Program-made: the position numbers and the translations under genes
Notes under the pieces: model-generated
Told to the model about the DNA's origin: nothing
The model's input: only the letters and a program-made list of their open reading frames with translations
The model's database searches: none
Shown: positions 1 to 20,688 of the stretch, piece by piece
Position numbering within the stretch: position 1 is the stretch's first letter
Layout of the letters: every line of letters starts with the position of its first letter
IMG/VR virus record: IMGVR_UViG_3300035670_000841
Coordinates: 1 to 32,595 of that record
Origin: a virus
Reading direction: 5' to 3' (one strand)
DNA length: 32,595 bases

Positions 1-264
1 ATCGAAAGGTATTCTTTTTTTACGAAGCCATTTAGTTATTATGTTAAAATCCCCCCAGTGGCGAGATGTGTAGATAACAATCCTATCCCCAAGCAAAGCT
101 CGCTTTTTTAAAAATTTTACCAACTCTATATTTTTAAAAACGCCGTAAACAGAAGGGCAAATTTTTGTTCGGTATTCCTTTTTCCATTGATTAGGTGGAT
201 AGATTGCAAGAGTCTGGTCAAAATCAACTGCTATACAGCGGGGATTTTTACTTTTTTCTTTCAT
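1..264 (-). CDS. HAD-superfamily hydrolase, N-terminal part (runs off the left edge)
   Basis: Starts at ATG 264 on the minus strand and stays open to base 1, so only the first 88 residues are visible. Near residues 13-18 it reads AVDFDQTLA, the DxDxT nucleophile motif of the HAD family (second Asp replaced by Gln: DFDQT). Near residue 66 it reads VIYTSRHWGDF, which fits HAD motif II (hydrophobic strand ending in T/S) followed by the usual helix. Phage members of this family are small phosphatases of nucleotides or polynucleotide ends; the substrate here is not readable. A GAGGAG ribosome site lies about 9 bases upstream, inside the preceding gene, and the two genes overlap by 17 bases, so they are probably translated together. 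The rest of the domain (Lys and the distal Asp pair) lies outside the window. Confidence 0.75.
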   Translation of the reverse strand, partial: MKEKSKNPRCIAVDFDQTLAIYPPNQWKKEYRTKICPSVYGVFKNIELVKFLKKRALLGDRIVIYTSRHWGDFNIITKWLRKKRIPFD

Positions 265-568
265 AGACTGGAATCTCCTCGGAATCAACGTCCCGTGAAC
301 TGAAGAAGTTCGTGTACTGGGTCTGCAGCTCACCGCTCCGTAATCTTTCCCTTACGCCCTCTGTATTGAGATTGAACTTCCATTTCTTAACGAAGGTGTC
401 GAACTGGTCTGAAAATATGAAGTTCTCAGCGTCCTTCTTTACTTTCTTATTCCGTCTGTGCTTGTATTTCTTTCCGTTACTGACCACCGTTGCTTCGTTA
501 TCAGGCAACATATAATCCTTGAATACCTGAATCAGCATCGCATATCTCAGTTTTTCATATCCATTCAT
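248..568 (-). CDS. Small phage protein of unknown function, 106 aa
   Basis: Lies 9 bases downstream of the DNA polymerase gene, with an AGGGGGAG ribosome site just before its ATG, and overlaps the following HAD gene by 17 bases. The protein is basic in its middle (a KKYKHRRNKKVKK stretch at residues 33-45) and acidic near its end, with no membrane segment or cysteine motif. The position suggests a role in replication or nucleotide metabolism, but I do not recognise a family. The basic stretch could contact nucleic acid; that is inference only. Confidence 0.75.
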   Translation of the reverse strand: MNGYEKLRYAMLIQVFKDYMLPDNEATVVSNGKKYKHRRNKKVKKDAENFIFSDQFDTFVKKWKFNLNTEGVRERLRSGELQTQYTNFFSSRDVDSEEIPVYERKK

Positions 569-577
569 AACTCCCCC

Positions 578-2239
578 TTATTCCCAGCGGTTTAAGGTTA
601 CGGAATCGACCTTTAGCGGCACATCAAGTTTCCAAGCGTTCTCCATTTCCCAGAGAATGTCCTCCTTTCTGACCTTTGAGTCGTTAGAGATTTCATAGAC
701 GAGTGAGTCGTGGACTGTAAGGACAGGAACAAGCCGATACTTCTCAAAGATATTGACGAGTGCTTTCTTCAGGATGCACTGGCTTGAGGATTGGATTGGA
801 AAGTTAACTGCCTGTCTCATTACAGATTCATATTCGGAGCGGTAGGGTGTGAACGGGTCGCCAACATACAAGGGAAGCTCGGCAATGTTCTTAGTCCAGC
901 CGTTCATCTTCTTAACATAATCCTGCTGATTACGAATCCAGATACCGACAGCGGGAAAGTTGAGGAAGTAATTGTCGATGGTCTTCTGTGCTTCTTCGAT
1001 GGATACGCCCCAATCTTGTGCGAATCCGAATGCGGTCTTTCCGTAGATGATTGAGAAGTTGATTATCTTTGCGGTGTGGCGGTCAATCCCCATCCTGTCT
1101 GCGGTTTCTTTATGCAGGTCTTTTCCGTCACGGAACGCACTCAGCAGAGTGGGGTCTTGGGAGAGATGGGCGAGAATCCTGAGTTCGACCTGACTATAAT
1201 CGGCCTGTAATAAGTAAAATCCTTGTTCTGCGATAAAGCATCTCTTAATTCTTTTTCCGTATTCCGTTTTCGACGGGATGTTCTGGAGGTTCGGGTTCTC
1301 CGACGAGAGCCTTTGAGTTTTCGTGAGGCATTGGTTGTAGCTCGAATGGAGTCTCGCTCCAGAATCCACTTTTTCAAGAATAGAGTCCACATAAGTAGAT
1401 TGTAATTTCTGTACCTCTCGATATTCGAGGAGCATCTTTGGGAAGGCGTGATGCTGAGCGAGCTTTCCGAGGGTTGCTTTGTCCGTGCTGTAGCCTTCCT
1501 TCGTTTTCTTCCCTTTCCTGAGCTTGAATTTTTCATAGAGAACCTTTTGCAGTTGTTTACTTGAGTTGAGGTTTAATTCCTTATCGCCAGCTAACGATTT
1601 TAATTTCCCTTCAAGGAGCTGAGTTTTTTTAAAGAAATACTCCTGAAGTTTCTTGAGGTTCTCGACATCAATCTTGACACCCTTCAACTCCGATGAAGCG
1701 AGGATGACCATTACCTTCTTTTCTACTTGGTCGTACCACTGTTCAAGCTGTTCTTTTCCTGCCATTTTATCCCGTAGGTAGGAATATAGCCTTGCAGTTG
1801 AACGTAGGTCGCTTTCGAGATATCCCGTGAGCGTCTTCGTTCCGACCTGATGCCACCATCCGTCTGGGAGAGATTTTCTGTCTTTATGGGCTGGGTTAAT
1901 TCTTCGGCAGGACTCATTGTAGACCTCCAATAGCTCTTTCATAGGTTGTTTTAGGAAACAGGTTGATAAGTATTTAAGACCTCTAGGATGGTTCGGGAAC
2001 AGCAGGTATGACATAATCATCGTATCTTCGTAGGTACAATCTTGAAAGGAAACCCCTGCTCGTCGTAAGACAGTAAGGTCATATTTCAGGTTATGGCCTA
2101 TGACTGTCTTTCCCTGTATCTTTAGGGGGAGGGTTTCAGAGATACTTACTGTGCCGTTCAGTAAGCCGACAAGCAGGGGTGTTGCTTGGTGCGGATTGGC
2201 TGACGTTGTTTCTACGTCAAGAATGACCTCTTCAGGCAT
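578..2239 (-). CDS. DNA polymerase, family A, with 3'-5' exonuclease domain
   Basis: Phage replicative DNA polymerase of the Pol I type without the 5' nuclease domain (553 aa from ATG 2239). The exonuclease domain shows all three motifs: D8-x-E10 (LDVETT), N50-x3-D54 (NLKYD) and Y140-x3-D144 (YLESD). The polymerase domain shows motif A at 347 (DYSQVELRILAH), motif B with R387, K391, F395 and Y399 (equivalents of E. coli R754, K758, F762, Y766), and motif C at 510-512 (HDS). The catalytic Asp 511 is kept, but the usual HDE glutamate is Ser. An upstream TTG at 2290 would add 17 residues. I prefer ATG 2239 because it overlaps the stop of the upstream 49-aa gene (ATGCCTGA), as expected for coupled translation, and it places the exonuclease motif close to the N-terminus. 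Confidence 0.95.
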   Translation of the reverse strand: MPEEVILDVETTSANPHQATPLLVGLLNGTVSISETLPLKIQGKTVIGHNLKYDLTVLRRAGVSFQDCTYEDTMIMSYLLFPNHPRGLKYLSTCFLKQPMKELLEVYNESCRRINPAHKDRKSLPDGWWHQVGTKTLTGYLESDLRSTARLYSYLRDKMAGKEQLEQWYDQVEKKVMVILASSELKGVKIDVENLKKLQEYFFKKTQLLEGKLKSLAGDKELNLNSSKQLQKVLYEKFKLRKGKKTKEGYSTDKATLGKLAQHHAFPKMLLEYREVQKLQSTYVDSILEKVDSGARLHSSYNQCLTKTQRLSSENPNLQNIPSKTEYGKRIKRCFIAEQGFYLLQADYSQVELRILAHLSQDPTLLSAFRDGKDLHKETADRMGIDRHTAKIINFSIIYGKTAFGFAQDWGVSIEEAQKTIDNYFLNFPAVGIWIRNQQDYVKKMNGWTKNIAELPLYVGDPFTPYRSEYESVMRQAVNFPIQSSSQCILKKALVNIFEKYRLVPVLTVHDSLVYEISNDSKVRKEDILWEMENAWKLDVPLKVDSVTLNRWE

Positions 2240-2381
2240 CGTAGGAATCCATCTTTTTTGAGAAGATTTCAAAGATGTGATGGAGTTCAACTTCAGCGTC
2301 CTGAAGCTCTAAGATGTTCGCTTTTTTATACGCCTTGTTCCACTTGTTAAGCACCTCGATAACTTTAAACAGGAGTGCCAT
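2232..2381 (-). CDS. Tiny phage protein of unknown function, 49 aa
   Basis: A short gene just upstream of the polymerase. Its ATG at 2381 follows a strong GGGAGGTG ribosome site at good spacing, and its stop overlaps the polymerase ATG. Its start overlaps the end of the 56-aa gene by 17 bases, giving a chain of overlapping cistrons. The product looks alpha-helical and amphipathic with many Lys, Glu and Leu (for example KVIEVLNKWNKAYKKANI), so a small coiled-coil or polymerase partner is possible. No family recognised. Confidence 0.65.
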   Translation of the reverse strand: MALLFKVIEVLNKWNKAYKKANILELQDAEVELHHIFEIFSKKMDSYDA

Positions 2382-2535
2382 CTTTCACCTCCCAGATGTG
2401 TTTGTGTTCTCTCATAATCTCCTGACCATCCTGCTTATCCAGCATCTCGTCAGCGAGTCTGAGAGCTTCTGCTTCGTCGTTCGCTGATACTGAAACTGCA
2501 TAAAGCACCTGTGTTCTGACGATAAAGTCCTTCAT
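2365..2535 (-). CDS. Tiny phage protein of unknown function, 56 aa
   Basis: Starts at ATG 2535 after a near-perfect GAGGAGGG ribosome site and overlaps the next small gene by 17 bases. The protein begins with a short beta strand (VRTQVLYAVSVSA) followed by an acidic helix with the pattern NDEAEALRLADEML. This beta-then-DEAEAL layout is seen in many tiny phage and bacterial proteins of unknown role. It sits between the resolvase-like gene and the polymerase in the same leftward transcript. Confidence 0.65.
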   Translation of the reverse strand: MKDFIVRTQVLYAVSVSANDEAEALRLADEMLDKQDGQEIMREHKHIWEVKDGTPV

Positions 2536-2578
2536 CGGTAAACCCTCCTCGACTTGTCAATTAAAGACGATAACGAAG

Positions 2579-2860
2579 TCATTCGTTCCCCCTTTCGAGG
2601 TATTCACGCTCAACTTTCACGGAATCGGGCAGTTTGACAGCAAAAAAGGCTCGGCGTTCTTTGGTAGTTTTTGATTTGGTGTTCTTGCACTGGATAAGGG
2701 TGAGTACCTTCTCTGAGAGTAGGACAACATCAACTTTAAGACCAATGGTTGAATATGACTTACTCCCAGCCCCTCGCATACCGAACATTGCTTTTCCTGT
2801 GTTGAGTGCATCGTGGATTACCTCCCGCTCCATCCTTGAGCCTTTGTGATATTTCGCCAT
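2579..2860 (-). CDS. Hjc-like Holliday junction resolvase / PD-(D/E)xK nuclease, short form (93 aa)
   Basis: Resembles the archaeal-type Hjc resolvase fold. It has an N-terminal KGSRMERE motif (residues 6-13, containing the first acidic catalytic position), a Gly-rich turn GAGSKS near 31-36, an Asp in KVDVVLL near 43-49, and a QCK core (LIQCKNT) near 57-62, matching the E/QxK of PD-(D/E)xK nucleases. These enzymes cut branched DNA during recombination or packaging. At 93 aa it is shorter than usual (about 120-150), mainly at the C-terminus, so it may be a minimal or altered enzyme. First gene of the leftward transcript from the 2917-2944 promoter. No strong ribosome site is seen upstream of the ATG (only AAGGG, far away). 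Confidence 0.65.
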   Translation of the reverse strand: MAKYHKGSRMEREVIHDALNTGKAMFGMRGAGSKSYSTIGLKVDVVLLSEKVLTLIQCKNTKSKTTKERRAFFAVKLPDSVKVEREYLERGNE

Positions 2861-2916
2861 ATTCTGTTATCGACCCTTATCTTAATTACTTGAGCTATAA
2901 TTCAGATTATGGAGGG

Positions 2917-2944
2917 ATTATAGCCCAATAAAGAACCAAGTCAA
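2917..2944 (-). promoter_or_regulatory. Leftward sigma70-type promoter for the replication block
   Basis: On the minus strand the -35 box TTGACT (2939-2944) and -10 box TATAAT (2917-2922) are separated by exactly 16 bases. It would start RNA near 2910, about 50 bases before the resolvase-like gene. Its -35 box lies in one arm of the inverted repeat 2940-2977. Confidence 0.7.
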
Positions 2945-2977
2945 ACAAAAAGTAAATAATCTGTAGTTTTGTTTGAC
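2940..2977. repeat. Perfect 11-bp inverted repeat spanning two divergent -35 boxes
   Basis: GTCAAACAAAA at 2940-2950 is repeated as its exact reverse complement at 2967-2977, with a 16-base AT-rich spacer. Each arm carries the GTCAA/TTGAC core of one promoter's -35 box, so a dimeric protein bound here would be expected to affect both divergent promoters. Confidence 0.75.
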
Positions 2978-3000
2978 CTCGGTACTGTAGATTATATAAT
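2973..3000 (+). promoter_or_regulatory. Rightward sigma70-type promoter for the Sm-like gene
   Basis: TTGACC (2973-2978) and a perfect TATAAT (2995-3000) are separated by 16 bases, the same geometry as the leftward promoter opposite. Transcription would begin near 3007, about 25 bases upstream of ATG 3032. Confidence 0.75.
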
Positions 3001-3031
3001 AACACAGACTTTTACACTTATAGGAGGGTTT

Positions 3032-3250
3032 ATGAAGCGGTACACGCAGGAGCTACACCCAGCTATGCTGGTGAAGAAGGATGTGGCCTTAGAACTAAGG
3101 AACGGTAAGAAAATCAGCGGTTATGTTCGGCAGACCTACGCTGATACGCTGGTACTAGAAGGGGAGTTTGACGGGGGTCATACCGCATGCTTAGTTAGCG
3201 TAGAAGACTGTATTTTAGTGCAATTTACCCCCAAAAAGAGGCTAAAATAG
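3032..3250 (+). CDS. Small Sm/Hfq-like beta-barrel protein (tentative), 72 aa
   Basis: Start chosen at ATG 3032, 3-4 bases after an AGGAGG ribosome site (3022-3028) and just downstream of a strong promoter; a longer frame from 2969 would begin inside the promoter. Residues 13-56 read like an Sm fold: VALELRNGKKISGYV (strand, Asn-Gly turn, strand as in Sm1), then ADTLVLEG, then a short loop and ACLVSVEDCILVQF. Sm/Hfq proteins form rings that bind RNA. The similarity is by pattern only and could be another small barrel. It is the only rightward gene in the left 5.8 kb, it is monocistronic, and it is followed by a GC-rich hairpin and a terminator, which suggests a highly expressed early gene. 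Confidence 0.55.
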   Translation: MKRYTQELHPAMLVKKDVALELRNGKKISGYVRQTYADTLVLEGEFDGGHTACLVSVEDCILVQFTPKKRLK

Positions 3251-3304
3251 GGCTTCCTATATAGTATTACTGTAATCCATATAAGATTACTATTAGTATA
3301 TATA

Positions 3305-3334
3305 CTCCCCCCTATGTAGAAGGCTAGGGGGGAG
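3305..3334 (+). terminator. GC-rich hairpin after the Sm-like gene
   Basis: A perfect 10-bp stem: CTCCCCCCTA (3305-3314) pairs with TAGGGGGGAG (3325-3334) around a 10-base loop. No T-run follows, so it may stabilise the RNA end or pause polymerase rather than act as a classical terminator. Confidence 0.45.
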
Positions 3335-3403
3335 GAAGTCTTATAAACAGACAAACCGACCTTGGGAGGTTTGGCTGGTAATGTTTCTTTATTGGTAAGT
3401 ATT

Positions 3404-3443
3404 AAAAACCTTTAATCTTTAGTATATAATTATTAAGGTTTTT
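3404..3443. terminator. Bidirectional rho-independent terminator between convergent genes
   Basis: AAAAACCTT (3404-3412) pairs with AAGGTTTTT (3435-3443) around an AT-rich loop, and the rightward copy ends in a run of T. It separates the rightward Sm-like gene from the leftward small-gene cluster and overlaps the last codons of the 97-aa gene. Confidence 0.55.
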
Positions 3444-3726
3444 TAATCTTCTTAGCTGTCGGGCGATATAGTCCAGTATCGCCAACAGAGGGCGTTGGCA
3501 TACTGTCCTTCTTCCAGAGTCCAGTATCGCCCTCCAGTATAAGATAATAATACTTTTTGGTAGGTTTAGATTGCAGGTAAAAGTTATATCTAATCTGTAT
3601 CGCCAGCAGGGGAGCTAAAACGGCAGGGGATAGCTCCCCATACTGGCGTATTATATCATCCAGTGATTCTTTTACACAGTGGGTGAGTAACTTTCCTGTT
3701 CTAGATTGACTGTCCCATCTGTACAT
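3433..3726 (-). CDS. Small protein of unknown function, 97 aa
   Basis: Last gene of the leftward small-gene cluster, with a GTGGAG ribosome site 6 bases before its ATG, overlapping the upstream 58-aa gene. The N-terminal half is helical (LDDIIRQYGELSPAVLAPLLAIQIRYN). The C-terminal half holds two GDTGL boxes (near 66 and 82) and ends in a basic tail (AKKIKKP). The repeated box could be a small duplicated motif. No family recognised. Its end coincides with the bidirectional terminator. Confidence 0.6.
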   Translation of the reverse strand: MYRWDSQSRTGKLLTHCVKESLDDIIRQYGELSPAVLAPLLAIQIRYNFYLQSKPTKKYYYLILEGDTGLWKKDSMPTPSVGDTGLYRPTAKKIKKP

Positions 3727-3848
3727 ATATGCTCCACAGATGAACTTTCAATGTTATCAGTTAAAAAGTAATCTAAGGTTGTTAAAAAGTCAATACCGAA
3801 CAGTTCGATACACTTTTCCAGCTTACGGGTCAAATTCTTGTCTAACAT
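3672..3848 (-). CDS. Small protein of unknown function, 58 aa
   Basis: ATG 3848 follows an AAGGAG ribosome site. It overlaps the start of the 97-aa gene in another frame, consistent with coupled translation. The product begins with a helical segment (LTRKLEKCIELFGIDFLTTLDYFL) and has an acidic, Ser-rich end. It has no recognisable domain. The position in the dense leftward cluster suggests an early or host-takeover protein, which is inference only. Confidence 0.55.
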   Translation of the reverse strand: MLDKNLTRKLEKCIELFGIDFLTTLDYFLTDNIESSSVEHICTDGTVNLEQESYSPTV

Positions 3849-3872
3849 AAGTTATCTCTCCTTATTGGGGGG

Positions 3873-3992
3873 TTAGACAGTCTTATTGTCTGACTCACGG
3901 ATAAACTTCTTACACATCCAGCACCAGAAACAGAACACGCCATCAAGATAGCCTCTGATAGACCTCCTGACAGCGTGTTTACATTCAGACAT
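3873..3992 (-). CDS. Tiny cysteine-rich protein, 39 aa
   Basis: Starts at ATG 3992 with an AAAGGA ribosome site. It carries a CKH near its N-terminus and a CFWCWMC cluster near residues 21-27. Together these give four Cys and one His that could bind zinc, although the spacing C-x2-C-x2-C is unusual. The rest is basic. It is too short to assign. It lies between two other tiny genes of the same leftward transcript. Confidence 0.5.
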   Translation of the reverse strand: MSECKHAVRRSIRGYLDGVFCFWCWMCKKFIRESDNKTV

Positions 3993-4007
3993 AAGATACG
4001 TCCTTTC

Positions 4008-4023
4008 TAGGTCTTTCGACCTA
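4008..4023 (-). other. Leader hairpin with GAAA tetraloop
   Basis: On the leftward RNA, TAGGTC pairs with GACCTA around a GAAA (GNRA-type) tetraloop, directly upstream of the AAAGGA ribosome site of the 39-aa gene. It could influence translation or RNA cleavage. Confidence 0.45.
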
Positions 4024-4042
4024 TAATGTATCTAAGTTTAGG

Positions 4043-4273
4043 TCACTTCTTATTGCTAACATAGCCAATCTCTTTTAACGCCTGCTCCTGCTCTTTTTTA
4101 CAGCGTTCTTTAGTGGTAACGATAAACTTGGAACGAACCGCTTGCATTAGGAATCTAGCCATTACCTTGTTGCCTAGCGGCTCTGACTTATATTCCCTCT
4201 GTAAGTCCTCTAATGCCTGATAAATCACCAACTCCAAGAAACGCTCATATTCAGTTGCAAGTTTTAACATCAT
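4043..4273 (-). CDS. Small helical protein of unknown function, 76 aa
   Basis: Starts at ATG 4273 (a second ATG follows immediately) after an AAGGAC ribosome site. The protein is predicted to be almost entirely helical and rich in Glu, Lys and Leu (LELVIYQALEDLQREYKSE in the middle, KERCKKEQEQALKEI near the end). No catalytic motif or membrane segment is seen. Part of the leftward small-gene cluster. Confidence 0.6.
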   Translation of the reverse strand: MMLKLATEYERFLELVIYQALEDLQREYKSEPLGNKVMARFLMQAVRSKFIVTTKERCKKEQEQALKEIGYVSNKK

Positions 4274-4287
4274 CGGTTTTTATCGTC

Positions 4288-4309
4288 CTTGCCTATTAAC
4301 TACGGCAAG
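4288..4309 (-). other. Intercistronic hairpin
   Basis: A 6-bp perfect stem (CTTGCC with GGCAAG) around a 10-base loop, just upstream of the ribosome site of the 76-aa gene. Confidence 0.35.
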
Positions 4310-4361
4310 TATCCTCCTTTTCTTTAGTTTTAATTTTTATAGGTTTCTTCGGCACGCTCTT

Positions 4362-4571
4362 TTACAGTCTTATGTTATACCTGACCGATATTTCGTCAAG
4401 GATATTCTGGTACTCTTTTTTACCGATACCCCTCCTTACTAGCTCATTCCCTGTATCAAACAGAGAGGAGAACGACTTGCTATTTACATCAGGTACTAGG
4501 TGTTGTGTTTCCTTATTGACCGAATAGTGTTCAAAGACCAGTGCATAATCATCCAGTCTATTCAAGCTCAT
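4362..4571 (-). CDS. Small protein of unknown function, 69 aa
   Basis: The frame is open from 4658, but I choose ATG 4571: it lies within the end of the upstream secreted-peptide gene (14-base overlap) and follows a GGAGG-containing ribosome site, while the longer start has none and would duplicate coding of the neighbour. The product (MSLNRLDDYALVFEHY at its start) has a C-terminal helical region with RRGIGKKEYQNILDEI. No family recognised. Confidence 0.55.
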   Translation of the reverse strand: MSLNRLDDYALVFEHYSVNKETQHLVPDVNSKSFSSLFDTGNELVRRGIGKKEYQNILDEISVRYNIRL

Positions 4572-4752
4572 AAGCTCGCCCCCCTCCGTTATTCCACCAA
4601 TGCCCGCCCCCATCAGTCGTGTACGGCTTGCCTTGAATCCAGACCTCCTGCGTGTCATCGGCTAGGATAGGGCGTATTTGCACAAAAAGCCCTATTACAG
4701 CCCCGATAATTAAGAGGTAAAGATATCTACCTTCTTTCCTTTGAGTTCCCAT
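4558..4752 (-). CDS. Small secreted or membrane-anchored protein, 64 aa
   Basis: Good GAGGAGG ribosome site 7 bases before ATG 4752. The N-terminus has a basic n-region (RKEGR) and a hydrophobic core (LYLLIIGAVIGLFVQI, residues 11-26), followed by a possible signal-peptidase site after ILA near residue 31. The remaining 33 residues are polar and Gly-rich (TTDGGGHWWNNGGG). This looks like an exported or membrane-anchored peptide, perhaps acting on the host envelope (for example superinfection exclusion), but nothing shows a specific role. It overlaps its neighbours on both sides. Confidence 0.65.
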   Translation of the reverse strand: MGTQRKEGRYLYLLIIGAVIGLFVQIRPILADDTQEVWIQGKPYTTDGGGHWWNNGGGRAYELE

Positions 4753-4892
4753 TTTTCTGCCTCCTCTGTTGAAATTATGTGAAATTTACCGCACTTCTCC
4801 GCTTTAATTACACCCTTTTTTACAAGCTGGTCTATCCGTTGTCTTGAATAGTTAAGTCGCCTTGCAAGCTCCGCTATAGTAATGTATCCCAT
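4710..4892 (-). CDS. Helix-turn-helix DNA-binding protein (MerR/excisionase-like), 60 aa
   Basis: ATG 4892 follows an AAAGGTG ribosome site; an upstream in-frame ATG at 4919 would start inside a palindrome and lacks one. Residues 3-35 match the winged helix-turn-helix of excisionases and MerR N-termini: YITIAELARRLNYSRQRID, then QLVKKGVIKAEKCGKFHII, then a C-terminal helix. Such proteins bind DNA as repressors, activators or excision factors. No integrase is present in the window, so a transcription regulator of the phage is the simplest reading. A natural target could be the inverted repeat 2940-2977 or the GGGTCT repeats near 5650-5696, but that is untested. Confidence 0.75.
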   Translation of the reverse strand: MGYITIAELARRLNYSRQRIDQLVKKGVIKAEKCGKFHIISTEEAEKWELKGKKVDIFTS

Positions 4893-4912
4893 TACCGCAC
4901 CTTTCTGCCTCT

Positions 4913-4947
4913 TTCCCAAATGGGAAGACTTGCCTTGCGGACAAGTC
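4913..4947 (-). other. Two abutting palindromes upstream of the helix-turn-helix gene
   Basis: TTCCCA/TGGGAA (4913-4926) and GACTTG/CAAGTC (4927-4947) sit directly side by side. On the leftward RNA the second has an inner CC-GCAA-GG stem with a GNRA loop. They fill the gap between the 58-aa gene stop and the helix-turn-helix gene. They could be an autoregulatory operator or RNA hairpins. Confidence 0.45.
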
Positions 4948-4948
4948 G

Positions 4949-5125
4949 CTAGGAGGCTTTTAAAAACTCCATTAGCGAAAACTCCATATCCTCAACAAAC
5001 TCCTTTAACTGCTCCTTAGGGTGGTTTTCAAACGGCTCCCAAGGTGTTCCGTGATTGTCTGCATAAAACTGACCACGGCAAAAACTATGAATATCCTTTT
5101 TTGTGATATTGGCTCTAAGCTTCAT
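4949..5125 (-). CDS. Small acidic protein of unknown function, 58 aa
   Basis: ATG 5125 follows a very strong AAGGAGGG ribosome site. The protein begins with a basic segment (MKLRANITKKDIHSF) and continues into an acidic helical end rich in Glu, Phe and Leu (KEQLKEFVEDMEFSLMEFL). No domain recognised. It is too short for most automated gene finders, but the ribosome site and the fit between neighbours support it. Confidence 0.6.
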   Translation of the reverse strand: MKLRANITKKDIHSFCRGQFYADNHGTPWEPFENHPKEQLKEFVEDMEFSLMEFLKAS

Positions 5126-5138
5126 AATCCCTCCTTCT

Positions 5139-5155
5139 CTCCCTTGTGTGGGGAG
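5139..5155 (-). other. Short intercistronic hairpin
   Basis: A 5-bp GC-rich stem (CTCCC with GGGAG, 7-base loop) immediately upstream of the ribosome site of the 58-aa gene. It is one of several such hairpins in the leftward cluster. Confidence 0.3.
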
Positions 5156-5189
5156 TGGTTTAGTTAATCTCGCAAAGTTCTTCTAACTC

Positions 5190-5429
5190 TTAGGTGCTAG
5201 TTCCCACTTGGTAACAACTGAACGACCCTTGAGGGCTATTACAATATGTCGATGTTCCGACCCTGTAACAGTTAACCCCCGCCCAAGCCGTACCAGAGCC
5301 ATATTGAAACGGCAGGCGGTACTCTTTTTGTGTCGGCATACCAAAATCAATCGTTATAACGGCAGAGAAATAGCTATTGCCGTTTACCTTGTCGAACCAT
5401 TCCTTTGCGTTAATGTCTATTGTCTTCAT
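5190..5429 (-). CDS. Conserved-looking small phage protein, 79 aa
   Basis: Start set at ATG 5429, 8 bases after a GAGGAGAG ribosome site; the longer frame from 5534 has none. The protein starts MKTIDINAKEWFDKVNGNSY and continues as beta strands with LPFQYGSG near residue 40. This layout (EWFDKVNGNSYFSA) recurs in small phage proteins of unknown function, as far as I recall. The C-terminus contains a short tandem duplication (CYRVGTST followed by CYQVGTST). It is probably the first or second gene of the leftward cluster. Confidence 0.65.
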   Translation of the reverse strand: MKTIDINAKEWFDKVNGNSYFSAVITIDFGMPTQKEYRLPFQYGSGTAWAGVNCYRVGTSTYCNSPQGSFSCYQVGTST

Positions 5430-5469
5430 TGTCTTTCTCTCCTCTCGTTCCGCTTGTGGGCTGGTGTGG

Positions 5470-5488
5470 TTTATTGTTTTGCAATAAA
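5470..5488 (-). other. AT-rich hairpin in the leader of the 79-aa gene
   Basis: A 7-bp perfect stem (TTTATTG with CAATAAA, 5-base loop) that includes the stop codon of the start-less open frame and lies about 40 bases upstream of ATG 5429. Confidence 0.35.
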
Positions 5489-5599
5489 ATCGTAGTAGTG
5501 AACGCCCTCTTTTTTGCATCCCTTGACACCGCAAATACCTCTACTTATGTGAATCCGTTTGTCTTTTCCTACTGAGTATCGTCCACTTCTAGCATTAAG
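5471..5599 (-). other. Open frame without a usual start codon (possible gene remnant or ATT-start gene), 42 codons
   Basis: The frame reads like a real small protein with a CGVKGCKKEGVHYY motif typical of small zinc-binding ends, but no ATG, GTG or TTG lies in frame. A proposed -35/-10 pair (5575-5603) overlaps its beginning. It may be a decayed gene, use a rare start, or be chance. Confidence 0.25.
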
Positions 5600-5630
5600 T
5601 CAACTATTTTCAATATAGTCTATTATAGCA
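5575..5630 (-). promoter_or_regulatory. Leftward promoter region of the small-gene cluster
   Basis: Two candidates on the minus strand: TTGACT (5598-5603) with 17 bases to GATACT (5575-5580), and an extended -10 element TGCTATAAT (5622-5630) without a clear -35. Either would transcribe the leftward cluster from 5429 down to the terminator near 3440. Confidence 0.5.
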
Positions 5631-5812
5631 TTAACTAGCAATATTTTCGGGGTCTATTTGCCCCTAGGATTAAAGATATTGGGTCTGATAGGGTCTACAT
5701 ATGGCTTTTTGAGATATCGCCTCATATCGCAAATATGGAGCAATATGACCTATTTTATATTTATTTTAACTATAATTCAATTTGGGGGTGTATTGCCTAT
5801 TGTAAGGGGAGA
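5604..5812. promoter_or_regulatory. Non-coding divergence region with GGGTCT repeats
   Basis: No credible gene in this AT-rich stretch between the leftward small-gene cluster and the rightward structural genes. It holds three GGGTCT copies (5650, 5681, 5691) with spacings of 31 and 10 bases, near whole helical turns. It also has a small GGGG/CCCC hairpin (5649-5664), a TATAAT box on the plus strand (5771-5776) without a convincing -35, and two ATATCGC copies near 5713-5730. It probably contains the divergent control region and possibly an origin; both are inferences. Confidence 0.5.
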
Positions 5813-5842
5813 ATGAGTATTATTTATATAAATTATGACTGA
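5813..5842 (+). CDS. Possible 9-codon leader peptide before the small terminase gene
   Basis: ATG 5813 follows an ideal AAGGGGAGA ribosome site and encodes MSIIYINYD before a TGA at 5840. The terminase ATG (5835) lies inside it in another frame and has no ribosome site of its own. Ribosomes ending the leader could restart at the terminase gene, so this looks like translational coupling. Confidence 0.4.
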   Translation: MSIIYINYD

Positions 5843-6395
5843 TGATAAACCACTGAGACAGCAGACTATTAAAAGGCGTGGCTTTGTCAGGGATATATTG
5901 AAAGGCAAGACAATCAAAAAAGCCTATAAAGACAATATCGCTAGGGGAGCTGTTACGGAAAAAACCTCTGAGGTGAACGGTTCTAGGGAACTAAGAAATG
6001 CAGAGACGCAAGCTGAGCTTAGGAGGCAGGTTGAAGGCCTTGGAAGGGATTGGGTTCAGGCCAAGTTGCGTGACCTTGCCGAAGACAAAAAGATAAATCC
6101 TAACGCTAGAGTTAGAGCAATAGAGCTAATCGGACGTACATTTGCAGACGTATTCCAGCAAGAGGTAGCACAGACTAACATCCTTAACGCCATCAACCTT
6201 GACCAGATTAGGGGTGCATTGGCAAAGCAAGGCGATGTTAACAAGTTATCCACACCAAGCCCAGACGTAATAGCTCAAGATATAGCATTAGATAGCACCC
6301 ATAGTGGGGGTACGGCCGATAATTCTTTATTATCGGACGCTACCGAGGGGGAGGGGGCTACCCCCGTTCAACCCCCCATGCCCCCCTCTAATTAA
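5835..6395 (+). CDS. Terminase small subunit-like protein, 186 aa
   Basis: The first substantial gene of the rightward operon, two genes before the large terminase. The N-terminal 40 residues are basic with a helix-turn-helix flavour (RRGFVRDILKGKTIKKAYKD), the middle is helical, and residues 90-115 (RVRAIELIGRTFADVFQQEV) match the pattern seen in many small terminase subunits after the DNA-binding part. The C-terminus is low-complexity and proline-rich. Small terminases recognise the packaging site and regulate the large subunit. The assignment rests on context plus this motif and is likely but not certain. It lacks its own ribosome site (see the leader peptide). Confidence 0.65.
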   Translation: MTDDKPLRQQTIKRRGFVRDILKGKTIKKAYKDNIARGAVTEKTSEVNGSRELRNAETQAELRRQVEGLGRDWVQAKLRDLAEDKKINPNARVRAIELIGRTFADVFQQEVAQTNILNAINLDQIRGALAKQGDVNKLSTPSPDVIAQDIALDSTHSGGTADNSLLSDATEGEGATPVQPPMPPSN

Positions 6396-6405
6396 ATTTA
6401 ATACC

Positions 6406-6431
6406 CTCACGGAAAATCGTGAGTAATTTTT
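6406..6431 (+). terminator. Hairpin with T-run after the small terminase gene
   Basis: CTCACG (6406-6411) pairs with CGTGAG (6418-6423), followed by TAATTTTT. A weak rho-independent terminator or attenuator. A second small palindrome, AGTGA/TCACT (6434-6445), follows directly. Confidence 0.5.
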
Positions 6432-6464
6432 AAAGTGAGTTCACTCTAATGGAGGGGACAACTG

Positions 6465-6680
6465 ATGAATTGTGAATGCTGTAGAGCATCAGAGGCAATA
6501 GTTAAGGATTACAGGCCCAGAACTGACTTATACGAGAGCAAATTCAAGTTCGACTACAAGACCCCTCTTAGTTGTTACGAGGCGTATCTGGTATGTAATG
6601 AGTGTTTTCACGCATCGGATAAGGAATTCTTCAGAAATCTCGCAAAGAACAAAAAGAAGGATGCTTTAAACACAGCGTAA
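6465..6680 (+). CDS. Small zinc-ribbon-like protein, 71 aa
   Basis: ATG 6465 follows a GGAGGGG ribosome site. It has two cysteine pairs, CECC at residues 3-6 and CNEC near 44-47, with a further Cys near 37, consistent with a small zinc-binding fold. The C-terminus is basic (RNLAKNKKKDA). Such proteins next to terminase genes are sometimes HNH-nuclease relatives, but no HNH motif is present. Function unknown. Confidence 0.65.
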   Translation: MNCECCRASEAIVKDYRPRTDLYESKFKFDYKTPLSCYEAYLVCNECFHASDKEFFRNLAKNKKKDALNTA

Positions 6681-6781
6681 GATGTTTATTTTCAGTATGT
6701 TACAGCATAAATGATACCCCTTTTGTAAATAGTGGTAGATAAATGAGTTACAGAAATTGAGTTAAAAGTGGCTATGTTGGT

Positions 6782-6868
6782 ATGGCTAGACAAAAAGAGG
6801 GGCTTAAATCGCATTTAATGCGGCATTTACTGCATGCCCATTATGCACACGGAGTTCGTGTTACATAA
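6782..6868 (+). CDS. Possible 28-aa His-rich peptide gene
   Basis: A short open frame with five His in its last 17 residues (HLMRHLLHAHYAH). It ends in TAAATG, sharing the last base of its stop region with the next small frame. No strong ribosome site. It lies in the 276-base gap before the large terminase gene, which otherwise holds only small inverted repeats. Confidence 0.25.
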   Translation: MARQKEGLKSHLMRHLLHAHYAHGVRVT

Positions 6869-6970
6869 ATGCAAGTTCTTACAGAAGACCAAGAGTTCTT
6901 GGACATATTGAGACTTTTCAGGGTAACTGAGTTACACGGGTGGTACAGGTGGGTAATTGAGTCTATCTGA
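6869..6970 (+). CDS. Possible 33-aa peptide gene overlapping the large terminase start
   Basis: Starts at the ATG right after the previous frame's stop and runs 14 bases into the large terminase gene. The sequence looks protein-like (LTEDQEFLDILRLFRV, then GWYRWVIESI), but the only GGAG is about 13 bases away. It may be a real small gene coupled to the terminase, or part of a longer ancestral gene. Confidence 0.35.
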   Translation: MQVLTEDQEFLDILRLFRVTELHGWYRWVIESI

Positions 6971-8390
6971 AGAGCAGGTATTGTTGACGAAGTACATGGC
7001 AAAGTCGATGAGTGATATTGTCTTCTTTGCTAAAGAGTTCTTACCGCATATGTTGACTTATGAGATTCCAGAGTTTCATAAGGAGATGTACGGGTTATTG
7101 ACTACGGAGCAGCGGTTAGTGATGGCAGCTCCTAGAGGATTTGCCAAAAGCACGATAAGTTCTGTTATTTACCCGATATTCTTGGCTTGTAGTGGTATTC
7201 GTAAGAAGGATGTATGTATTGTTTCAGCCTCAGAGACATTAGCGGTAGAGATGTTACGGAGGGTGAAGCGGGAGCTTGAGAGTAATCAGAAGATACTTCA
7301 GTTATTTGGTAATTTAAAGACAGAGAAGTGGTCAGAAACTCATTTTATTACTAAGACTGGTGTTCAGTTCAGGGCTAGGGGTGCTGGTGGTCAGATTCGT
7401 GGATTTCGGCCTGACTGTCTCATTCTTGACGATATAGAGACAGACGAACTCGTAGAGTCTGAGGAGCAGAGAAAGAAGCTAAAAGAATGGTTATTCAAGG
7501 CTTGTCTTAATACTCTGCTCCCAGAGGGCCAATTTATCTTGATTGGTAGCATCATTCACCCCTTGTCCCTGCTTAGTGACCTGCTTTTGGTTGATAATGG
7601 GTGGACTAAGCGGAAGTATCAGGCTTACAAAGAGGCGAAGCAGGAATCTGGGTACGAGTTGTGGCCAGCGATGTGGCCTCACGATAAGTTACAGGTGAGG
7701 AAGAAGGAGATTGGTAGTTGGGCTTTCAGTTCCGAGTATTTAAATGACCCGATTTCGGATGAGACTGCACCGATTAAGCCGCATCAGATACGGTACTGGA
7801 AGGAACTACCCCAGCAATTAAGTTGTGTGATATCGGTTGACCCAGCTTACTCAGAGGATGAGAAAGCAGACTTCAAGGTTGCAAGTTTGATTGGGATTGA
7901 CCAGCAGTTGAACAGGTATTTAGTGAGTTACGTCCGTACTCACGCCAGTACGGGTGAATTTATTGACTCGGTTCTGAATCTTTGGATGCAGAACAGGGGA
8001 AAAGTCACAAGCATCGGAGTTCCCAGCTCTGGTGTCGAGAAACAATTCTTCAAATCCTTCGTGGACAGGGCGAATTCTAGGAAGTTATACCCCCCAGTAG
8101 CGGAACTGAAGAACAGTTTTATTACTTCCACTGGTAATTCAGTGAGAAGTAAGAAGGCGAGGATTACCGCTGCCTTACAGCCTCTCTTTGAATCAGGGAA
8201 ATATTACATTCACGACACGCATTTAGAGGCTTTAGATGAGCTTCTGACAATCGGTTCCTCTAGGTGGGATGATTTAGTGGACACGATGTGTTATGCGGAA
8301 CAACTCTTAACCCCAGTCTTTGTTGATTCTCCAGAAGAATTAAACAGCGGATACTTGAAAGTGGAAGTGAAACCTAACTATGGCTACTAA
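6957..8390 (+). CDS. Terminase large subunit (packaging ATPase and nuclease)
   Basis: 477 aa. The packaging ATPase domain has a Walker A variant APRGFAKST (58-66) and Walker B LILDDIE (155-161), followed by a coupling-like LIGS near 195-198. The C-terminal RNase H-fold nuclease has VISVDPAYS (catalytic Asp 295) and a late DDLVDTMCYA near 440, matching the conserved distal Asp. This motor cuts concatemeric DNA and pumps it into the prohead through the portal. The start is a TTG at 6957 preceded by AGGTGG at 4-base spacing; the next ATG (6996) lacks a ribosome site. The last 11 bases overlap the portal gene, so the two are coupled. Confidence 0.95.
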   Translation: MSLSEEQVLLTKYMAKSMSDIVFFAKEFLPHMLTYEIPEFHKEMYGLLTTEQRLVMAAPRGFAKSTISSVIYPIFLACSGIRKKDVCIVSASETLAVEMLRRVKRELESNQKILQLFGNLKTEKWSETHFITKTGVQFRARGAGGQIRGFRPDCLILDDIETDELVESEEQRKKLKEWLFKACLNTLLPEGQFILIGSIIHPLSLLSDLLLVDNGWTKRKYQAYKEAKQESGYELWPAMWPHDKLQVRKKEIGSWAFSSEYLNDPISDETAPIKPHQIRYWKELPQQLSCVISVDPAYSEDEKADFKVASLIGIDQQLNRYLVSYVRTHASTGEFIDSVLNLWMQNRGKVTSIGVPSSGVEKQFFKSFVDRANSRKLYPPVAELKNSFITSTGNSVRSKKARITAALQPLFESGKYYIHDTHLEALDELLTIGSSRWDDLVDTMCYAEQLLTPVFVDSPEELNSGYLKVEVKPNYGY

Positions 8391-13667: not shown

Positions 13668-15947
13668 ATGCTTAAAAAGCACACCCTTGGTCTTGGAATT
13701 ATCTGTAAGGATGAAGTCGAGTTAGTTGAGAACATTCTGAAGAAGTATTCATCGTACTTCGACAAAGTTCATATCACGATTACACATCCGTCAAGACGGG
13801 AAGGGCTTGAGAAGATTATCAAACGGTACGGGGCTGAGAGTTCGTACTTTGACTGGATTGATGATTTCGCAGCGGCTCGGAACTTTAATAAAGCACAGCT
13901 TGATACGACTCATATCTTCCGTATGGACACGGACGATGAGATTGAACACCCAGAACAGATAGAGAAAGCATTCGAGAGAGCGGTAGCACAGGACTTGAAT
14001 ATCGTCTACTGCTACTACGTTTACTCGAAGGATGACCACGGGGTCTGCAATGCTGCTCACTGGCGTGAGACTATCTTCAAGAACAACGACAACCTGTTCT
14101 GGAACAAGAAAATCCACGAGAACATATTAGTCAAGAACACGGCTGGTCATAAGATTGAACTCTGTGACAAGTTCAGGATTATCCACAACGTAGACGATAA
14201 TCACGCCCTTCAGTCAGCTTTACGAAACATCAAGTATTTGTTGAAGGAATACAATGCTGATGGGGACAAGACCGACTCAAGAACACTCGCATATCTTGGG
14301 CGTATGTTCATGGGGGTCGGTGACTTTGACAGAGCGGTAATCTTCCTCAAGAAGCACATTGAGACAAGCGGTTGGGACGAGGACAGATACTACTCGTGGT
14401 GTTGCTTGGCTGAGATTTGTAAGCAGAGGGGCGAGTACGATGTTGCCATAGGCTCTGCGATGGAAGCGTTGATGGAGCGTCCTGATTACCCAGATGCTTA
14501 CCTCAAGCTCCACGACATTTACTTTGATATGAAGGACTGGAAGAAGGCGTTAGTGTGGGGGAAGCGTGGTCTTGAAATCCCCCTCCCTAAGACGTTCCTT
14601 CTGCTTGACCCCAGTTCGTACACTTGGAGGCCGACGATATCCTTGGCCTTCACTTACTTCCAGTTATCGGACTTCGAGACTGCATATAAGTTACTGATGG
14701 TTGCAAAGAAGGAAGTTCCGCAACTTGACTGGATTAAAGAGAATGAATACCTGTTCACTGAAGCGTTAGACAACAAACACTTCGTTGAACATTTTATGTG
14801 GCTCTTTAATTATCTGAGTGAGAAGAAGCACCCGAAGTTACCGAGTCTCTTTGATGTGATTCCAGACGGACTGAAAGAGTGCGACACGCTGTTCGCTCTG
14901 AAGAACAGATACAGAACCCCGAAGGTGTGGGGTGAGGACGAGCTAGTGATATTCTGTGGAATGTCAGCGGAGCCGTGGTCGCCCAAGTCAGCCGACGAGG
15001 GAATCGGGGGTAGCGAGGAAGCCGTGATTCATATGGCGAACTCACTCTCTAAACTAGGTTGGAAGGTAACGGTGTTCTGCAACTGTATCGGCCTCGAAGG
15101 GAAATACGGAGAGGTGGAGTACAAGCACTACACTGAGTTTAACCCCAAGGATGAGCATAACGTACTCATCAGTTGGAGGAACAATATCTTCCCCTTCGGG
15201 ATGAAGGCAAAGAAGAAGATTGTTTGGTTGCACGACCTTCCAACGAACATTGATTTAAGTAAAGAGGGCGTTGAGAGCTTTGACAGGATTATAGTTCTGA
15301 GCGAGTACCACAAGAAGACGTTAGAAGGACTTGTCCCAGACGAGAAGATAATCGTAAGCACGAATGGGATTAACGCTGATGATTTCAAAGACCTGAAGAC
15401 TAATAAGAAACCTCACAGGATGATTTATGCCTCTAGTTACAACAGGGGCTTAGAGACAATCCTGAAGCTGTGGCCTGAGATTAGACAGGCAATCCCCGAT
15501 GCGGAGCTTCACTGTTACTACGGGTGGCAGGTCTACGATGAGTTCGTAAGACAGGGGCTTATCAAAGAGGATGGTTGGAAGAACAAGATGCTTCAGTTGA
15601 TGAACCAAGATGGTGTGAAGGAACACGGAAGAGTGGGTCACAAAGAGCTTCTCAACGAATACTGTAAAGCTGCTGTCTTCGCTTACCCGTGTACTTACGC
15701 TGGTGAAATCAACTGTATTGCATTCACTAAAGCGGTTGCCTGTGGGTGTTACCCAGTCACCAATGATTATGCGGTGATGGAAGAGCGGAACACTATGGGG
15801 ACTGTAGCTAGGGATGAGGAAGAGTTCAAGAAAGCACTCATTGAGGCACTCAGTAAGTCCTACAACAACCCAGTTGACCTTGCGTATGTTGACGCTAACT
15901 CTTGGGACACCGTTGCAAAGGACTGGAACAAGCGGGTGCTGAAATGA
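13668..15947 (+). CDS. Bifunctional glycosyltransferase: GT2 domain, TPR repeats, GT4-like domain
   Basis: 759 aa with three parts. Residues 1-180 look like a GT2 (GT-A fold) enzyme: LGLGIICKDEVELVENIL, then a FRMDTDDEIEHP segment with the DxD-type metal site and later WNKKIHENI, as in SunS-like transferases with TPRs. Residues 200-320 hold TPR-like repeats (RTLAYLGRMFMGVGDFDRA, then LAEICKQRGEYDVAIGSAM). Residues 420-755 look like a GT4/GT-B enzyme, with GIGGSEEAVIHMANSLSKLG near the N-terminus of that domain, VSTNGINADDF, and a C-terminal AYPCTYAGEINCIAFTKAVA with the donor-binding Glu. First gene of the glycan cassette, with AGGAGA before the ATG. Confidence 0.85.
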   Translation: MLKKHTLGLGIICKDEVELVENILKKYSSYFDKVHITITHPSRREGLEKIIKRYGAESSYFDWIDDFAAARNFNKAQLDTTHIFRMDTDDEIEHPEQIEKAFERAVAQDLNIVYCYYVYSKDDHGVCNAAHWRETIFKNNDNLFWNKKIHENILVKNTAGHKIELCDKFRIIHNVDDNHALQSALRNIKYLLKEYNADGDKTDSRTLAYLGRMFMGVGDFDRAVIFLKKHIETSGWDEDRYYSWCCLAEICKQRGEYDVAIGSAMEALMERPDYPDAYLKLHDIYFDMKDWKKALVWGKRGLEIPLPKTFLLLDPSSYTWRPTISLAFTYFQLSDFETAYKLLMVAKKEVPQLDWIKENEYLFTEALDNKHFVEHFMWLFNYLSEKKHPKLPSLFDVIPDGLKECDTLFALKNRYRTPKVWGEDELVIFCGMSAEPWSPKSADEGIGGSEEAVIHMANSLSKLGWKVTVFCNCIGLEGKYGEVEYKHYTEFNPKDEHNVLISWRNNIFPFGMKAKKKIVWLHDLPTNIDLSKEGVESFDRIIVLSEYHKKTLEGLVPDEKIIVSTNGINADDFKDLKTNKKPHRMIYASSYNRGLETILKLWPEIRQAIPDAELHCYYGWQVYDEFVRQGLIKEDGWKNKMLQLMNQDGVKEHGRVGHKELLNEYCKAAVFAYPCTYAGEINCIAFTKAVACGCYPVTNDYAVMEERNTMGTVARDEEEFKKALIEALSKSYNNPVDLAYVDANSWDTVAKDWNKRVLK

Positions 15948-19154: not shown

Positions 19155-19729
19155 GAGCGATTTGGGAACGGGGGCAGGAAGGCGGGATTACCAGACCAAT
19201 AGACCGTGAGATATTGTACGACAACACTCTGGAGGTTTACCGAACATTATGTGAGTTCGGGGTCAAATGTTGGTTAAGCCACGGTACTATGCTGGGGGTT
19301 TACAGGGACGGAGATTTCATTCCTTGGGATGATGATTCAGATATCGGAGCGGATATAAGAACATCCCAGAACAGGGACAAGGCAGAAGAGCGGTTAAGGG
19401 AGCTTGGGTTCTTTGTCCCACCGATAGGGAACAGAAATCGTGGGGTTAGTCCCATTGATAATATGCCTTACCACGACACCGTAGCCATCAGGGATGGGGA
19501 AAAGGTTGAGGTATGGTGGTACGAGAAGGTAGGGGACAAATATGTGTATGACGTTGACCGTCCTCCTGCCTGTCTCCACCACGACGAGAAATATTACGAC
19601 ACTCTAGGGGAGATTGAGTTCAAGGGTAATAAATTCGCAATCCCAGCCCATATTGATGAGTGGATAGTGATGATGTATGGCTCGGACTGGAACAAGCCCC
19701 AGAAGGGCAGAAAGTATAACAACTCGTGA
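19151..19729 (+). CDS. LicD-family phosphotransferase
   Basis: 192 aa with GTG start at 19151, after an excellent AAGGAGG ribosome site and overlapping the previous stop (GTGA). Residues 41-65 read SHGTMLGVYRDGDF then IPWDDDSDIG, the diagnostic LicD nucleotidyltransferase-fold motifs (GT-L-G and the catalytic DDD). LicD and the related fukutin-type enzymes transfer phosphocholine, ribitol-phosphate or glycerol-phosphate from CDP donors onto sugars. The CDP-polyol synthase two genes upstream fits as donor supplier. Confidence 0.88.
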   Translation: MRAIWERGQEGGITRPIDREILYDNTLEVYRTLCEFGVKCWLSHGTMLGVYRDGDFIPWDDDSDIGADIRTSQNRDKAEERLRELGFFVPPIGNRNRGVSPIDNMPYHDTVAIRDGEKVEVWWYEKVGDKYVYDVDRPPACLHHDEKYYDTLGEIEFKGNKFAIPAHIDEWIVMMYGSDWNKPQKGRKYNNS

Positions 19730-20688
19730 AGAAAGCTCTCATAACTGGACTTACTGGCCAAGACGGAAGTTATTTAGCGGAGTTGTTACTAGAGAAGGGC
19801 TACGAGGTTCACGGGGTTATGAGGCGTACCTCGTGGCCTAACACGGGTAGGATTGACCATATCTTCAACCCAGAGAGTAAGAAGTTCGTTCACTACGGGG
19901 ATTTGGAAGAAGGTCTTGAGGGGCTAATCCACAAGATTCAGCCAGATGAGATTTACAACTTGGCTGCAATGAGCCATGTGAAGATAAGTTTCGACATCCC
20001 GATTTACACTGGGATGGTCAATGCGATTGGCGTAACCAAGTTACTGGAGGCCGTGAGGCAAATTAAACCTGACACGAAGGTTTATCAAGCGTCATCGAGT
20101 GAGATGTTCGGTGACACACCGCCTCCACAAAATGAAGAGACTAAGATGAATCCAGTCTCGCCTTACGGAGCGGCGAAGTTGTACGCATACAATATGATTC
20201 GCTGCTACAGGAACGGTTACGGGTTGTACGCATCCAACGGGATTCTATTCAACCACGAGAGTGAGCGGAGAGGAGTCAACTTCGTTACTCGGAAGATTAC
20301 TCTCGGTGCGGCTAGGATTCGCCTCGGACTCCAAGACAAGCTGTACTTGGGGAACCTCGATGCTTTGAGGGACTGGGGGCATAGCAAGGATTATATGAGG
20401 GCGATACACCTGATTATGCAACAGCCGAAGGCTGACGATTGGGTGGTTGCGACTGGGGAGTATCACACGGTCAGAGAGTTCGTTGAGCGAGTTTTCGACT
20501 ACCTGAACCTGTCATTAAAGAAACATCTGATTATAGATGACAGTTACAGGAGGCCCAATGAAGTACCTGCCCTACTTGGCGATGCTACAAAGATTAGGTC
20601 AATCGGCTGGAAACCAGAGGTCACATTTGAAGACCTCGTTAAGAAGATGTGCGATGCTGACATTAAACTCATTACACAAAGACAGTAG
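19726..20688 (+). CDS. gmd: GDP-mannose 4,6-dehydratase
   Basis: 320 aa SDR-fold enzyme, GTG start overlapping the previous stop (GTGA). GLTGQDGSYLAELLL (8-22) is the NADP-binding GxxGxxG motif; SSSEMFGDTPPP holds the catalytic Ser/Thr region; YGAAKLYAYN holds the YxxxK catalytic pair; and the NHESERRGVNFVTRKIT region is characteristic of this family. It converts GDP-mannose to GDP-4-keto-6-deoxymannose, the branch point to GDP-fucose, GDP-rhamnose and GDP-perosamine. It is slightly shorter than the usual 345-370 aa. An aminotransferase two genes downstream suggests the perosamine branch. Confidence 0.93.
   Translation: MKKALITGLTGQDGSYLAELLLEKGYEVHGVMRRTSWPNTGRIDHIFNPESKKFVHYGDLEEGLEGLIHKIQPDEIYNLAAMSHVKISFDIPIYTGMVNAIGVTKLLEAVRQIKPDTKVYQASSSEMFGDTPPPQNEETKMNPVSPYGAAKLYAYNMIRCYRNGYGLYASNGILFNHESERRGVNFVTRKITLGAARIRLGLQDKLYLGNLDALRDWGHSKDYMRAIHLIMQQPKADDWVVATGEYHTVREFVERVFDYLNLSLKKHLIIDDSYRRPNEVPALLGDATKIRSIGWKPEVTFEDLVKKMCDADIKLITQRQ

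Follow-up and report, generated by a model that had tools for sequence, protein, structure and literature searches.

A mirror-image pair of sigma70-type promoter sequences between divergent early genes of a phage contig

Genes and signals flanking the divergent gap

The DNA analyzed here (the window) is a stretch of 32,595 nucleotides from the IMG/VR virus record IMGVR_UViG_3300035670_000841. Within its early region, an AT-rich gap of 171 bp (31% GC) separates two divergent genes, one starting leftward at position 2860 and the other rightward at position 3032. The leftward series of genes on the same strand begins with a gene encoding a 93-aa protein (2579-2860, minus strand) that resembles the archaeal Holliday junction resolvase family Hjc (PF01870, E = 0.0017), with a sub-threshold score of 18.7 bits compared to a cutoff of 21.1. 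This Hjc-like gene is followed by two small ORFs and by the gene of a 570-aa family A DNA polymerase (578-2290, minus strand; PF00476, E = 2.7e-103). To the right of the gap, a gene on the plus strand encodes a protein of 72 aa (3032-3250), with AGGAGG preceding its ATG. A preliminary description of this DNA had assigned divergent promoters in the gap to a replication block on the left and to a small gene on the right, and the matches to DNA_pol_A and to the Hjc-like family support this assignment well. The label "Sm-like", which had been given to the 72-aa gene, was not confirmed. We found no Pfam match for its product at E 0.1 and only weak PHROG matches; the single-sequence structural model is all-beta and of low confidence (five strands, pLDDT 67), and the best structural match was not significant (E = 1.4).

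Downstream of the 72-aa gene, the hairpin CTCCCCCCTA / TAGGGGGGAG (3305-3334, plus strand; -21.7 kcal/mol) may represent the end or a processing point of the rightward unit. This hairpin is very stable, consists of G/C and has no T run on either strand. A second, AT-rich stem followed by a T run (3404-3443, plus strand; -7.9 kcal/mol, z = -1.8) is a weak candidate terminator and falls between the 72-aa gene and a facing leftward gene (3433-3726). Since the hairpin and the AT-rich stem precede the facing gene, the rightward unit would comprise one short gene within an otherwise leftward early region. Scans for Rfam families and tRNAs gave no hits.

The promoter pair and its inverted repeat

Two sigma70-type promoter sequences are arranged back to back in the gap. 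The leftward one (2917-2944, minus strand) consists of the -35 box TTGACT (2944-2939), a spacer of 16 bp and the -10 box TATAAT (2922-2917), which read on the plus strand as ATTATA (2917-2922), 16 bp and AGTCAA (2939-2944). The rightward one (2973-3000, plus strand) combines the -35 box TTGACC (2973-2978) with the same spacer length and the -10 box TATAAT (2995-3000). Both sequences match the consensus in 11 of 12 positions; they lie on opposite strands with their near-consensus -35 boxes facing each other, and their TTGAC cores are separated by 28 bp. The consensus applied is that of sigma70, the use of which by this phage is assumed. Both -35 boxes are overlapped by the arms of a perfect inverted repeat, GTCAAACAAAA on the left (2940-2950) and TTTTGTTTGAC on the right (2967-2977), which pair in all 11 positions around a spacer of 16 bp. 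Direct reading of the sequence thus located the mirror-image TTGACT-16-TATAAT / TTGACC-16-TATAAT arrangement and the perfect 11-bp repeat exactly where the preliminary description had placed them.

In order to estimate the chance level, we used 300 second-order Markov surrogates of the contig. Only these two sites in the 32.6-kb contig reach at least 11/12 consensus positions with a spacing of 16-18 bp, compared to a surrogate mean of 0.70 such sites, and a back-to-back pair within 60 bp occurred in none of the 300 surrogates. The sequence is therefore best read as a real divergent promoter pair, beyond chance, made up of strong-looking bacterial-type promoters. If both predicted promoters are active, transcription would start at about 2910 in the leftward and at about 3007 in the rightward direction. 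The repeat by itself is not clearly beyond chance: the window contains two perfect repeats that have arms of 11 bp or more and a spacer of up to 40 bp (centres near 122 and 2958), and the surrogates contain 0.29 on average. That such repeats can arise randomly, and that a general scan of positions 1-7000 revealed no excess of weaker promoter-like sites, would be compatible with a coincidental arrangement in which one or both promoter matches are unused. We consider this very unlikely, given that the pair is missing from every surrogate and is placed exactly in the divergent intergenic gap.

Because both promoters contain TTGAC, five of the 11 positions in each arm match automatically and are accounted for by the -35 consensus. 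The remaining six base pairs match with a probability of about 0.004, based on the base composition upstream of the -35 boxes in comparable pairs. We accordingly regard the pair of promoters as solid and the length of the arms as mildly unusual. The extended arms leave room for a functional dyad. The coincidence that the spacer of the repeat and those of both promoters all measure 16 bp has no evident meaning. When folded as a single strand, the dyad yields -8.3 kcal/mol (z = -4.8). An AT-rich intergenic dyad near polA with such a fold might be regarded as a replication origin or as a cruciform or hairpin element next to the DNA polymerase gene, which the promoters would prime or melt. This explanation appears hardly credible to us, as the fold score simply reflects the perfect repeat, the GC skew shows no clear change at the site and no iterons were found around it. 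A second inverted repeat, imperfect with 12/15 matching positions (2953-2967 / 2984-2998), has its centre at the rightward -35 box, and the motif AGATTAT/ATAATCT is present three times around the promoters.

Mirror-image pairs in other viral contigs

We searched viral contigs for outward-facing TTGAC/TATAAT combinations on both sides, with spacers of 16 bp and 14-44 bp between the TTGAC cores. This mirror-image layout was found in at least 120 stretches, a set that includes related phages. A control query in which TTGAC was replaced by TCTGA, with the same -10 boxes and spacing, gave no matches; being a single scramble, it demonstrates a large enrichment, the size of which is not finely measured. 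After removal of near-identical cores, 69 distinct pairs were left among the matches listed, namely that of the window and 68 others, and an ORF of at least 100 aa was absent over 64 of these 69 cores. Since at least 120 stretches carry the layout compared to none for the scrambled control, we conclude that near-consensus, exactly mirrored divergent promoters are a common phage design, of which the pair in the window is an ordinary instance. The preliminary description had called the equal spacing of the elements unlikely to be due to chance. This holds true, with no matches for the scrambled control, but the spacing loses its special nature in view of how common the layout is in viral contigs. 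A corresponding pattern with 17-bp spacers gave one match in 285 bacterial genomes of one phylum, which is too few for statistics.

A T-rich stretch directly upstream of the -35 box is the rule in such pairs. Arms that extend six or more bases inward are occasional and were present in three of the 68 other distinct pairs listed (L137, L142 and L143). The inner arms of these three each have their own sequence, unlike the ACAAAA of the window, and the long arms thus share no common operator word. The exact repeat of the window, with a spacer of 10-22 bp, was detected in three other viral contigs. We discarded the first of these matches as unrelated, lying inside a coding sequence, and the second as an unrelated terminator-like hairpin. 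The third (L011:5125-5163) belongs to an unrelated phage. It contains TTTTGTTTGAC, the same arm word, as an inverted repeat within a divergent promoter region that has a small leftward gene on one side and the gene of an XRE-type regulator on the other.

Relatives of the phage were identified through the terminase in six contigs (best identity 78%) and through the major capsid protein at 55 loci, partly on the same contigs. The search of their DNA for all early ORFs covered the complete contigs of four of the closest relatives and, for the longer contigs among the others, at most 10 kb on either side of the match. In the DNA searched of these relatives sharing terminase or capsid genes, the early block (1-5800) was not found; matches of early ORFs were restricted to the family A polymerase, which had a distant counterpart in a single relative, and to the two ORFs that lie closest to the structural genes (5835-6395 and 6465-6680). 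Comparison of region 2300-3700 with the DNA of the relatives by blastn gave nothing except a 33-base hit (E = 0.09). The 72-aa protein had a single match in 44 records of relatives; this marginal match, from a distant record, covered 41 residues at 27% identity (E = 0.002), and we did not count it as an ortholog. Scans of viral contigs revealed no close relatives of the polymerase, the Hjc-like protein or the 72-aa protein, and scans of bacterial genomes none of the polymerase. Judging from these comparisons, the early block and the structural genes seem to have had separate histories. In the close relative IMGVR_UViG_3300035670_000388, structural proteins are up to 89% identical, and a counterpart of the early block 1-5800 was not detected. 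Two genes with counterparts in this relative lie among the structural genes of the window: one (13668-15947) encodes a protein matching two glycosyltransferase families (78% identity), the other (19726-20688) a nucleotide-sugar epimerase (88% identity).

Separate promoters, shared operator or coupled unit

Taken together, we assign a probability of roughly three in four to the reading that the gap contains two strong phage promoters of the host type (sigma70) that are separate, arranged back to back and without a dedicated operator. The left promoter would drive transcription of the block with the Hjc-like and DNA polymerase A genes, while the right one would start a short transcript of the 72-aa gene that probably ends at the hairpin. 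The inverted repeat would then derive largely from the shared -35 box preceded by a T-rich stretch, and probably no specific regulator acts on it. As the expected RNA starts are separated by about 97 bp, two polymerases would share only the upstream, alpha-subunit contact zone, as follows from polymerase footprints. Both promoters could probably be used in the same cell and would be coupled at most via supercoiling. For this phage, the pair marks the likely start points of replication-gene transcription.

According to the preliminary description, one dimeric regulator could control both promoters. More generally, a dimeric or tetrameric regulator of phage or host origin might bind both arms and switch the 72-aa gene in concert with the replication block. 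Such an operator would fit the perfect dyad over both -35 boxes, the arm extension that is improbable from composition, and the three other pairs with arms reaching six or more bases inward. The genome also encodes a small protein of 60 aa of the HTH_17 type (4710-4892, minus strand; PF12728, E = 1.5e-05, 25.6 bits compared to a cutoff of 27), which had been put forward as the regulator, but we found no evidence that links it to the site. Phage operators are usually present in more than one copy, whereas the arm word is missing from the rest of this genome with up to 1 mismatch and is as frequent as expected by chance with 2. Moreover, the arm sequences differ in other phages, no recognised regulator gene adjoins the site, and the arm centres are 27 bp apart, a distance that exceeds that of most single-dimer operators. 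An additional argument against a dimer based on helical phase was dropped, because equivalent points in the 11-bp arms range from 17 to 37 bp apart and some helical register therefore always fits. Overall, the proposal of a single dimeric regulator gained no positive support, and we regard a shared operator as unlikely.

The arrangement of two separate promoters agrees with known back-to-back divergent promoters of bacteria and phages, in which one gap houses two complete sigma70-type promoters pointing in opposite directions. Compared to ordinary pairs of this kind, the arms in the window run 6 bp past the -35 boxes, which is matched or exceeded in the three listed pairs mentioned above. The pseudo-symmetrical bidirectional promoters of E. 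coli have starts most often 18 bp apart, also 10 or 23, and consist of one shared symmetric element that accommodates only one polymerase at a time (Warman et al. 2026, PMC12825309). They have in common with the window that divergent transcription, predicted in our case, originates from symmetric DNA. However, promoters as separate as those described here are not classed as bidirectional in that work (PMC12825309). The Pc/Pr switch of plasmid pLS20 has overlapping divergent promoters that are flanked by several motifs for RcoLS20, its proven regulator (PMC4207663). The window resembles this switch in having divergent promoters in one gap with repeats nearby. It differs in its non-overlapping core boxes, with one perfect dyad and no regulator known to act on them. 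Contigs of HMO-2011-type marine phages (e.g. L079, upstream of the gene of the terminase small subunit) contain the same mirror-image TTGAC-16-TATAAT arrangement with T-rich sequence before each -35 box. They differ in their flanking genes, and similarity to the early genes of the window is restricted to a weak one to the family A polymerase in some contigs.

We further observed that the gaps between the -35 boxes are unevenly spread in the mirror-image viral set (L078-L197; e.g. L079:11913-11998). In one homologous group of 30 contigs, only gaps of 20, 30-31 and 38-41 bp occurred, and the gap differences between homologous pairs showed peaks at 0-1, 8-10 and 20 and troughs at 3-6 and 14-17. 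Neighbouring gap classes differ by about one helical turn, which would fit selection on helical phase. When each of the 34 groups of related contigs contributed one value, the periodicity was weak (p ~0.03-0.06 at 10.5-11 bp, with several periods tried without correction). Mirror-image phage promoters might accordingly be imagined as a coupled unit, in which a -35 gap near whole turns (about 20, 30 or 40 bp) brings the two polymerases, or their alpha subunits, together on one face of the DNA; the 28-bp pair of the window would be one example, with the dyad equalising the strength of both sides. We give this idea only a small chance. The discrete gaps in marine phages make the question of polymerase-polymerase geometry testable. 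The gap of the window, at 28 bp, is just outside the 29-31 class. The terminase small subunit encoded by L079 has relatives in Pelagibacter phage HTVC033P and Puniceispirillum phage HMO-2011.
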